64,000 nucleotides of DNA, taken from Psychroflexus gondwanensis ACAM 44 (GTDB taxonomy: Bacteria; Bacteroidota; Bacteroidia; Flavobacteriales; Flavobacteriaceae). Position numbers and translations under genes: made by a program. Of the stretch, positions 1-1,855 are shown in pieces. The first letter of the stretch is position 1. Each line of letters begins with the position of its first letter. The notes beneath the pieces were generated by a model. The model saw only the letters and a list, made by a program, of their open reading frames with translations, was not told the origin of the DNA and did not search any database. The DNA lies in NCBI RefSeq assembly GCF_000355905.1, contig NZ_APLF01000006.1, forward strand, positions 1 to 64,000, read 5' to 3'.

Positions 1-22
1 AACAAATAGAAAAGTGGAGTTC

Positions 23-32
23 GTTCCGATAG
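23..32. repeat. Left half of the interrupted target palindrome
   Basis: GTTCCGATAG is the exact inverse of 1410-1419. Together the two halves form the 20-bp palindrome GTTCCGATAGCTATCGGAAC that the IS110 element split. The surrounding bases (GGAGTTC before it, ACTCCGCC after the other half) extend the symmetry imperfectly. It may be a dispersed intergenic palindrome rather than a gene-specific site. Confidence 0.7.
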
Positions 33-111
33 ATTCTGTGTTAATAATCAAGTGATATTTCAATTTATTTATTTAATATTGATATCTGAAGGCAACTATA
101 AGTTAGCCTGC

Positions 112-150
112 AAGGGTACCTCCGCATTCGTGTGGTGTACCCTTTTTTGA
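112..150 (+). terminator. Terminator-like hairpin inside the IS right end
   Basis: AAGGGTAC (112-119) pairs with GTACCCTT (137-144) and is followed by a T run on the plus strand. It points against the transposase, so it would stop plus-strand transcription entering from the left flank before it runs antisense through the transposase. It could also be a structural part of the element's right end. Confidence 0.5.
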
Positions 151-164
151 TGATAGTCATTTTC

Positions 165-1163
165 TTAGGGATTCTGGTTTTTATCTATCACAAAAATAAG
201 TTCAAGCATTTTTCTCTGCACAGCAATCAGCGCTTTCATTTTGATTCCACTTTTTGATACGAGTCTAACATATAAGTCTTTATGCGATTGGTTATATTTT
301 ACAGAGGATAGAGATGGAAGATGCATTGATTTTCTTAGATGCCTGTTGCCTCTCTTTGATATTCGAGGTTTACCTTTTATTGATGTTCCCGACTGTTTTT
401 CCTTTACATCAAAGCCTGCGTAACTGGTCAGTTGCTTTTTGTTTCTAATGAGTTCGAATCCATTAGTCTCTGCCAGTACTGTTACAGCAGTCAGTTCTCC
501 TACCCCAGGTATAGTACAAATATTATTTACTCTTTGCTTTAACTCTGGGTGACTTTTAAGTAATGTTGCTATGTCCAATTTGATTTCTTTTTCCTGTCGA
601 TTTAAGAATTTGATTCTATCTTCGATTCGAACAAGGCTCTTTTGATTAGGCATAGCTTCTGACTTTTCTGCGTGTCTCTGATTTTTCACCATAGCCCTTT
701 CTTCAACAATCTGATCACGCTCTCTGGTCAACTGTTTTAATTCTCTGTAAATATCCTTAGGCCGAACCCAATTATCCAGTTTACGCTATAAACCAAACTG
801 CGCAATGGCTTGAGAAGCTGTCTTATCTGTTACAGTTTTAATATCAAGAGACCTTGCATAGTTGCTGATCTTATTGGGAAGTATAACGCTTAAGTCAATG
901 TTCATACTTTCTAATGCGTATGCCAATCTCTCGTGGTACACTCCGGTCGCTTCCATTACATATCGCATCTGAGCGGCATTCTCACAACAGGAGGATACCC
1001 ATTCGATCATCGATTGAATCCCTTTGTCACTATTTACAAATACTTTGTATGCAAAGATTTCAATACTTAAGCTCTCCAACAGCCTACCTAATGACACCAC
1101 TAATTCCTTTTGGGCAACATCAATACCCGCGACTTCTTTTAAAACCTTTTCCAATTGTTTCAT
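165..1163 (-). pseudogene. IS110-family transposase interrupted by an in-frame TAG
   Basis: Two reading pieces lie in the same frame. The N-terminal piece (786-1163, 125 codons) begins with the IS110 RuvC-like DEDD domain (GIDVAQKELVVS near the start, MEATGVYHERLAYAL in the middle). The C-terminal piece (165-785) has the transposase_20 domain with the helix-hairpin-helix IPGVGELTAVTVLAE and the conserved YAGFDVKEKQSG and KRGNRHLR blocks. The whole frame is 332 residues, the normal size for the family. The only lesion is the amber codon at 786-788, after TASQAIAQFGL. The reading continues as RKLDNWV. CAG (Gln) to TAG is the simplest change. No frameshift is needed. A full-length product would require readthrough or suppression, so the copy is probably inactive on its own. 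Confidence 0.85.
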
Positions 1164-1199
1164 TTTAAGTTAGTTAAATTAAATAATAAAGTGAAATAT

Positions 1200-1367
1200 C
1201 TCTTCACGTCTTTTCTCCTAGTTGGATATTCTGGATACCAAATTACTCAGTGGCTCCTTACATTCTGTTCAGACTCCAAGAAATATAAGGGAATAAGGTC
1301 ATTTCTATCGGTCGATATATCTTGAAGATTACCTAGCCATCGGTTGACTTTTATTCCCTTTCACTTA
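1200..1367 (-). ncRNA. Putative IS110 bridge RNA
   Basis: The leader upstream of the transposase folds into two loops in the order expected for a bridge RNA. Loop 1 is closed by 1345-1360 pairing with 1287-1301. Its internal loop carries CCGATGGCT (complement of 1335-1343) and CCGATAG (complement of 1305-1311). The target on the same strand reads CCGATAGCT then ATCGG, so the left guide matches 8 of 9 and the right guide pairs 7 of 7. Loop 2 carries ACAGAAT (complement of 1262-1268), identical to the element's right end (complement of 33-39), and TAGGAG (complement of 1215-1220), which pairs with the left end next to the core (plus-strand TAGGAG at 1404-1409). Ends are approximate: the 5' end comes from a promoter match at 1374-1381 and the 3' end from the last guide. 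Confidence 0.75.
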
Positions 1368-1373
1368 TATTTA

Positions 1374-1381
1374 CAAAGCTA
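1374..1381 (-). promoter_or_regulatory. Promoter -7 element for the bridge RNA/transposase
   Basis: The minus strand reads TAGCTTTG, fitting the Bacteroidota TAnnTTTG element. A TTTG lies 16 nt upstream on the same strand. The predicted start, about 7 nt downstream near 1367, falls just before the first stem of the bridge RNA. Confidence 0.55.
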
Positions 1382-1409
1382 ATTTTTCATAGTAATACAA
1401 ACATAGGAG

Positions 1410-1419
1410 CTATCGGAAC
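1410..1419. repeat. Right half of the interrupted target palindrome
   Basis: CTATCGGAAC is the exact inverse of 23-32. It abuts the AG core at 1408-1409 that marks the element's left end (minus-strand CT). Confidence 0.7.
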
Positions 1420-1436
1420 TCCGCCCGTACTTAAAG

Positions 1437-1466
1437 AAAAGCTTCTCTTACCCGAGGAGCTTTTTT
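1437..1466 (+). terminator. Intrinsic terminator
   Basis: AAAAGCTTCTC pairs with GAGGAGCTTTT (11 bp, one G-T pair) around a TTACCC loop, followed by a T run. It probably served a plus-strand gene left of the window before the IS110 insertion separated them by 1.4 kb. Confidence 0.65.
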
Positions 1467-1855
1467 ATTTCCAATATTTAGTTGCAAAAAGATGAGAGCT
1501 GAAGCTGATCTCGCTTTTCTAACGGGGAATTCTCAGCTGTTATTCCGACAGAGAAGCCCTTTGCTTTGACGAGGAATCTTTTGTCTTTACGACAAATCTT
1601 TAGTTTTTGGATAAAAAGATTCCTCAGTCGTTTGTCAGCACTTTCAGGATGGCAGGCAAGGAGTTAATTTGCCAAACGCAGTGGAGGAGCAAGTCTTGGA
1701 GTTTATGCCTAGAAAGGTGGAAGTTTTCGAGCTTTGATGAAGAGCTAGCCTTTTGAGTTCTCTTTTTTTGTGTAAGGTTTTAAAAATTTATTATCCCGCC
1801 GCACTAAATCTGTTTTTAAAATTTTGACAAAAAGACTTCTTTATCAGCTGATTTC
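1467..1855. other. Non-coding stretch with an inverted repeat
   Basis: I see no gene here. A perfect 12-bp inverted repeat, GAGGAATCTTTT at 1571-1582 and AAAAGATTCCTC at 1614-1625, lies in a stretch that looks like a degraded dispersed intergenic repeat. Nothing else could be assigned. Confidence 0.4.

Follow-up and report, generated by a model that had tools for sequence, protein, structure and literature searches.

Bridge RNAs, the covariation of their guides with target sites, promoters that form at the junction of the element ends, and palindromic targets have already been published for mobile elements related to the one described here (PMC11208160, PMC11208158, PMC11187229). IS621, as described in PMC11208160 and PMC11208158, combines a two-domain recombinase that carries a Tnp serine with a bridge RNA encoded in the left end, in which a target loop is followed by a donor loop; the guides on the 5′ side of the loops resemble the top strand, those on the 3′ side are complementary to it, the core is CT, an RNA promoter arises where the right end meets the left end (the RE|LE joint), and palindromic repeats serve as the target. 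The clade described below shares each of these features, the promoter as a candidate. In the IS1111 group, the site choice of a DEDD transposase is likewise guided by an RNA, the seekRNA, but this RNA is located downstream of the gene, and sub-terminal inverted repeats are present in the ends (Siddiquee et al., PMC11187229), whereas in our element the RNA lies upstream. Unlike IS621, the clade has candidate promoter halves of the form TTG-N20-TAnnTTTG, a Bacteroidota type, and one of its branches carries 2 to 10 kb of cargo. The bridge RNA is of the known kind, and the clade is an unusual variant.

The element and its insertion site

The window, a 64-kb stretch of DNA that forms the first part of contig C6 of a 3.31-Mb genome, contains an IS110-group element of 1377 bp at positions 33 to 1409 on the minus strand. 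Its transposase (recombinase) frame, at 165 to 1163 on the minus strand and interrupted, matches PF01548 in its first half (40.4 bits; cut-off 29) and PF02371 in its second half (78.8 bits; cut-off 21.3), in line with the earlier note, made from the letters of the window alone, that had recognized an IS110 element in a flavobacterium; the genome belongs to the same genus as Psychroflexus curvus. The 246-nt leader that this note had placed upstream of the transposase was found at 1164 to 1409. On the minus strand, the left end CTCCTATGTTTG starts at 1409 and the right end ACAGAAT ends at 33. The CT core occupies 1408 to 1409 (minus strand) and is repeated, as AG on the plus strand, at 31 to 32, beyond the other end of the element. 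The left flank, which includes the left target CCGATAG and adjoins a stretch resembling the 3′ tail of a tRNA-Leu, lies at 1410 to 1432, and the right flank, which includes the right target CTATCGG, at 14 to 32 (both minus strand).

A search with the first 1500 bases of the window revealed an unoccupied copy of the target in the same genome (C18:120521-120571), where the two flank blocks overlap by 2 bases and meet at the AG core. When rejoined, the window flanks match this site at 51 of 63 bases, the whole palindrome included. The boundaries 33 and 1409, which had been proposed from the window itself, are therefore independently supported; a relative in the same genus (L049, genome G419) has the same length and is 95.4% identical over the 1377 bp. 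The same search found no second copy of the element in its own genome, and a plasmid collection gave no match to it at blastn sensitivity.

The target of the window element is a perfect palindrome, TTCCGATAGCTATCGGAA, and that of its lineage an interspersed palindrome, CCGATAG|CTATCGG. With at most one mismatch, CCCGATAGCTATCGGG occurs at 90 places in 18 of 27 genomes of the genus, while its reversed control occurs at none. The unoccupied site lies just past a tRNA-Leu gene, and by eye the window site and the unoccupied site have a tRNA-Leu-like 3′ tail in common. As a side observation, both regions (window 1419-1468 and C18:120461-120571) adjoin either the tRNA-Leu gene, in C18, or 3′-tail-like repeats, as the integration sites of genomic islands do.

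Four guides can be read in the leader, all on the minus strand. The left target guide (LTG) CCGATGGCT at 1335 to 1343 agrees with the target CCGATAGCT at 8 of 9 positions, the odd position being a possible rG.dT wobble, and the right target guide (RTG) CCGATAG at 1305 to 1311 pairs with CTATCGG at 7 of 7. The left donor guide ACAGAAT at 1262 to 1268 equals the right end of the element (7 of 7), and the right donor guide TAGGAG at 1215 to 1220 is complementary to the left end CTCCTA (6 of 6). The former is invariant in the 31 leaders that we compared, and the first base of the latter varies among relatives. All four matches, to the target and to the element ends, are present where the earlier note had located them, but its statement that they are independent went too far: the donor matches are common to the clade, and the two target guides are not independent because a palindromic target makes both of them read one sequence twice.

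Bridge RNA and its guides across relatives

A scan of GTDB genomes found 180 relatives. The best 80 of these have hosts labelled as Bacteroidota, apart from one Ignavibacteria bin (L080); the window itself and four loci that other searches had supplied brought the set to 85 sequences. Recognizable left ends and donor loops were present in 81 of the 85, and a right end in 71 of these; L068, L093, L103, and L118 have no usable ends, and in the further 10 of the 81 no right end was in reach. A separate family search matched 19 of 397 genomes, the own genome included, 11 of them by stretches of about 30 to 50 bases only. Among the relatives, the left end CTCCTATGTTTG, the right end ACAGAAT|CT, and the donor loop are nearly constant and loop 1 is variable; because rows were chosen by motifs of the element ends and the donor loop, with one or two substitutions tolerated, the constancy of these parts is partly built in.

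Non-redundant rows numbered 76, with enough right flank in 64 elements and enough left flank in 73. Guide matches were set against permuted flanks, a descriptive comparison in that related elements are not independent draws. Beyond the core, 309 of 320 right-flank bases agreed with the RTG of the same element (n = 64 elements, window included; permuted mean 112.7, maximum 143 in 2000 trials). For the LTG, scored in whichever of three registers fitted best, 414 of 511 left-flank positions of the same element agreed (n = 73 elements; permuted mean 217.8, maximum 251 in 1000 trials); rescoring with a 9-base target and a free shift gave 507 of 657 (permuted mean 319.3, maximum 352). The RTG match is perfect in 54 of the 64 elements. 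On the left side, 13 of the 73 elements match their target at five or fewer of nine positions, and the register of the target varies by 0 to 2 nt; a bulge in the target was weighed as the source of the shift of 1 to 2 nt, but by eye a guide lying 1 to 2 nt further along the loop seems to explain it in L086, L105, L119, and L137. G.T or U.G types account for 22 of the 54 left-guide mismatches in well-matched elements. The count of 2/7 for the left target of L078, in which the inner left-end repeat was taken, is probably wrong, and the row was kept; the left end of this locus is duplicated in tandem at 2231-2280 (CCTATGTTTGCAAAGTAATTAATT twice). In total, 61 elements hold 45 distinct guide pairs. 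Target guides thus covary with the flanks, as the earlier note had proposed to check in relatives, and donor guides match the ends in the window and its relatives and are nearly invariant.

Folding 31 leaders, hand-picked from the 81 for spread, with RNAalifold gave two hairpins with internal loops, the target guides flanking the first loop and the donor guides the second. In the window, the target-binding stem-loop lies at 1288 to 1359 (helices 1 and 2, with 98.9% and 100% of cells paired) and the donor-binding stem-loop at 1198 to 1284 (helices 3 to 6), both on the minus strand. Compensatory changes keep pairing in 31 of 41 pairs, and 97.9% of cells pair. The covariation score was 0.524, compared with at most 0.131 for structures slid by one to three columns, against which the structure is favoured because it was derived from the scored alignment, and with a mean of 0.239 for shuffles. 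The fold and the leaders of relatives support the claim that a bridge RNA is encoded in the left end with its target loop ahead of its donor loop. IS621 has a separate 5′ stem-loop; the fold of the window leader as a single sequence has a hairpin ahead of the first target stem, at which the modelled stretch starts. Rfam 15 contained no matching family; its only two matches both fell below the gathering score (E 0.41 and 0.8).

The sequence TAnnTTTG is the −7 consensus of Bacteroidota. It is fitted by TATGTTTG at the left end of the element (1398 to 1405, minus strand), and a TTG in the right end (49 to 51, minus strand) could supply the −33-like half of a circle-junction promoter. With the ends joined as in a circle (RE|LE), TTG lies exactly 20 nt upstream of TATGTTTG in 53 of 59 distinct junctions, a count to which the shared ancestry of the ends contributes; at other spacings from 10 to 39 nt there are at most 3 occurrences each. 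A promoter-like box also stands inside the element before the first stem (TAGCTTTG, 1374 to 1381, minus strand). By analogy with IS621, whose promoter forms at the RE|LE joint (PMC11208158), the candidate junction promoter is the same design with another promoter type.

Taken as a whole, we give a probability of about 0.95 to the reading that the window element is a mobile element of the IS110 group that reached its site by RNA guidance and is now decaying. The first part of the mechanism is shown by sequence comparison. The leader encodes an RNA that forms two hairpins with internal loops; in loop 1, the 5′ side corresponds to the left target and the 3′ side is complementary to the right target, and loop 2 stands in the same relation to the element's own right and left ends. 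Across relatives, loop 1 follows the insertion site, and loop 2 and the ends hardly change. By extension from IS621, a recombinase tetramer would hold the circle and the target together via the bridge RNA, the serine of the Tnp domain would cut the top strands at the CT core before strand exchange, and excision would yield a circle whose RE|LE joint assembles the promoter of the RNA (TTG-N20-TATGTTTG). The window copy is no longer able to make the full recombinase.

This last point reflects the state of its frame, which contains an in-frame stop at 786-788 (codon 126) and an early end at 165-167 (codon 333), 23 codons before the end of the intact frame of L049. The divergence from L049 is unevenly spread, with 1 difference in the 246 nt of the leader against 62 in the remaining 1131 (p = 7e-5). 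The sole leader difference is at 1350 (minus strand); 30 of 31 leaders have a standard pair between this position and 1297, and in the window the pair is broken. With two stops in the recombinase frame and one stem pair broken, the window copy should be unable to move itself, and stands as the record of a guided insertion. The description of the element as working or recently working holds in part: "recently" is plausible, as guides and flanks still match, and "working" is not supported, given the two stops, the broken pair, and searches of its genome that found no second copy and only 31 to 43% identical relatives of its transposase.

Two other accounts of the leader have to be weighed against guided insertion followed by decay. 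The leader could be a regulatory untranslated region and nothing else, with the protein picking the site and the guide matches arising as a by-product; the non-coding ends of IS110 elements have indeed been suggested to regulate expression (PMC11208160). This account is contradicted by the covariation of loop 1 with the target and by permutation maxima that stay far under the observed counts, and closely related elements, such as the sister rows L067 and L070 (end branches of 0.11 and 0.12), sit at different sites, each in agreement with the loop 1 of the element found there. We regard it as scarcely credible. The second account concerns the fate of the window copy, which could be non-autonomous, with a different clade recombinase still acting in trans on its bridge RNA and ends. 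The intact guides and ends fit this, as does a leader far better kept than the rest of the element, although such conservation stems from the history that the two copies have in common and may be older than the stops. On the other side, the relatives of the window transposase in the own genome are only 31 to 43% identical and mostly fragments, so that no close recombinase was found there, nor was a second copy of the element, and the pair 1350/1297 is broken. We therefore consider use in trans unlikely and prefer an insertion that was guided and then decayed in place. Separately, contigs C3, C19, C36, and C1 of the same genome (L006-L013) contain fragments of more distant IS110 transposases, some with stops.

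The guide pair CCGATGG/CCGATAG is common to the window, L049, L059, L061, L063, Flavobacterium daejeonense (L089, L090), and a Pedobacter (L104). L089/L090 and L104 sit apart from the subclade of the window in a quick tree that leaves 26 of its 64 forks open, in which L104 fills only 37% of the columns and for which 13 loci, 10 of them clade members, provided no protein. Convergence on a common palindrome, or exchange of leaders, could account for the same pair in separate branches.

The earlier note had said that copies with identical first-loop guides and different flanks would speak against guidance, and one such copy occurs, in P. curvus (L061, also listed as L015), where the element with the same target guides is inserted inside an open reading frame of 211 aa. 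Because this frame crosses the rejoined flanks, the ends of the copy are right and its site is a partial match, 7/7 in the right half and 5/7, at a one-base shift, in the left half. We rejected the copy as a refutation of the guides and read it as a probable off-target insertion; its donor guide, ACAGAGT, has one mismatch to its own end. Off-targets seemed to tolerate insertions in the target, as reported by Durrant et al. (PMC11208160).

A recombinase subgroup without the fourth aspartate

The relative L059 matches NF033542 at 168.5 bits (cut-off 140), and its predicted AlphaFold2 fold has a mean pLDDT of 90.0. With this model, the best Foldseek matches were ISCro4 (9t56_A, TMq 0.74) and IS621 (8wt9_C, TMq 0.75). 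The ISCro4 recombinase (PDB 9t56) is the best match in both sequence and fold, at 22 to 24% identity in the fold alignments. The Tnp serine is retained: S258-G259 is invariant in 53 aligned clade sequences, and the window motif KQSGTS aligns with the SG of IS621.

The active site of IS621 consists of D11, E60, D102, D105, and S241, and mutation of any one of them abolishes recombination (PMC11208158). The first three DEDD acids are kept in the clade, and the fourth is absent in 69 of 69 distinct clade proteins: where IS621 keeps D105, the clade rows examined have A (33), C (27), M (6), or S (3). Of the 10 clade members that provided no protein for the tree, L065, L085, L097, L105, and L122 were added for this count, L132 was unreadable, and L123 and L127-L129 are copies of L122. 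An HMM alignment with IS621 and ISCro4 has no gap in the fourth-acid stretch, where TDTVDA of IS621 stands over TDKTAS; in the window transposase, the fourth-acid site falls in codons 113-116 (816-827, minus strand). ISCro4 keeps the fourth aspartate (TDAVDA), unlike the clade, and so do the other IS110 members of the same genus or phylum, which share the domains and have the residue in 9 of 9 rows (L052, L054, L055, L057, L150-L153, L156). The nearest row outside the clade, L150, is 42% identical and reads TDKLDA in the same context. One truncated IS110 frame outside the clade, L017, is also without the fourth aspartate. Apart from this comparison, L052 (G402, same genus), a 38% identical IS110 protein that keeps the residue, has twelve equally scoring copies in one genome.

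A Glu five residues after the first aspartate is present in 68 of the 69 clade rows and, by the secondary structure of the L059 model, sits where strand 2 begins, beyond the turn that comes after this aspartate. No Glu was seen at this position in the outgroup rows, where L153 has Asp and L156 Ala, so an acid there is not exclusive to the clade because of L153. Since loss of D105 kills IS621, the clade must compensate, and from these alignments we infer that its recombinases work with three RuvC carboxylates or with a substitute; D15, E71, and D113 would bind the metals, perhaps helped by the clade-typical Glu at D15+5.

The effect of the D105 mutation in IS621 (PMC11208158) could also be taken to mean that the proteins are inactive passengers, moved by recombinases with a complete DEDD motif. 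In many hosts the clade rows have retained long frames together with the Tnp serine (invariant in the 53 aligned) although the fourth acid is absent in 69 of 69, which argues against this, as do identical copies found at separate locations. Sphingobacterium sp. CZ-2 has, in its complete genome, five copies with 0 differences over 1402 bp and differing outer flanks, and Flavobacteria bacterium BAL38 has three copies in large contigs, with 0 differences over 1368 bp and outer flanks that again differ; Mucilaginibacter lappiensis, with four copies at contig ends and an uncertain number, was left out of this evidence. On the pattern of these copies, the clade members are plainly mobile and have moved recently, and we hold the passenger explanation to be very improbable. 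By homology, fold, and RNA the clade is IS110; by its DEDD motif it is a deviating subgroup.

Cargo-bearing elements and the meaning of the clade

Nine loci form one branch with one common set of target guides, and both ends could be read in eight of them; in the ninth, L134, the right end was not found. Each of the eight has one left and one right end on the element strand, with the right end far past the gene, and is bordered by flanks that agree with both of its target guides; in L143 the match is shifted on the left and shorter on the right. The elements measure 3250-3252 bp (L119, L121, L130), 5028 bp (L143), 6480 bp (L142), 11,074 bp (L140), and 11,083 bp (L139, L141), with the 2 to 10 kb of cargo between the recombinase gene and the right end. 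L119 carries a SulP sulphate permease, as do L121 and L130 by 90 to 99% identity. The cargo of L143 comprises a TonB receptor and a cation efflux protein, and that of L142 a SulP sulphate permease, ArsR, DUF6428, a metallophosphoesterase, a GcvH-like protein, and ACR3. In L139 we found a chromate transporter, DoxX, an AraC-type regulator, a methyltransferase, metallophosphoesterases, ACR3, DUF6428, and ArsR; the cargo of L140 and L141 was assigned by 95% and 99.955% identity to L139. Neighbours of L139 include PRTRC ThiF (TIGR03736, above cut-off) and PRTRC B (TIGR03737, just below cut-off).

L139 and L141 come from differently named hosts and are 99.955% identical over 11,083 bp, while their right flanks (333 bp aligned) are 67% identical. 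We read this as a probable recent transfer into the same site; the identity may instead come from contamination of one assembly, L141 being on a 33-kb contig.

Among the matches listed in the open PubMed Central literature, preprints aside, the portions of text available reported no bridge-RNA element that lacks D105 or bears cargo. We think it likely, though well short of certain, that the loci described here represent a large, active bridge-RNA clade of Bacteroidota that works without the fourth DEDD carboxylate. Within this clade there would be true bridge-RNA transposons, which bring operons for the transport of metals and oxyanions, up to about 10 kb long, into a programmed PRTRC-adjacent site and have moved between species.

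What should surprise a specialist is that the clade proteins examined are without a residue whose loss kills IS621, and yet the elements are mobile; comparing these natural enzymes offers a test of what D102 and D105 do in catalysis. With its 45 guide pairs, the clade is also a natural readout of guide-target pairing, and it displays retargeting between close relatives while the donor ends stay nearly fixed. With the cargo-bearing elements, bridge RNAs would serve in nature to transfer operons as well as insertion sequences.
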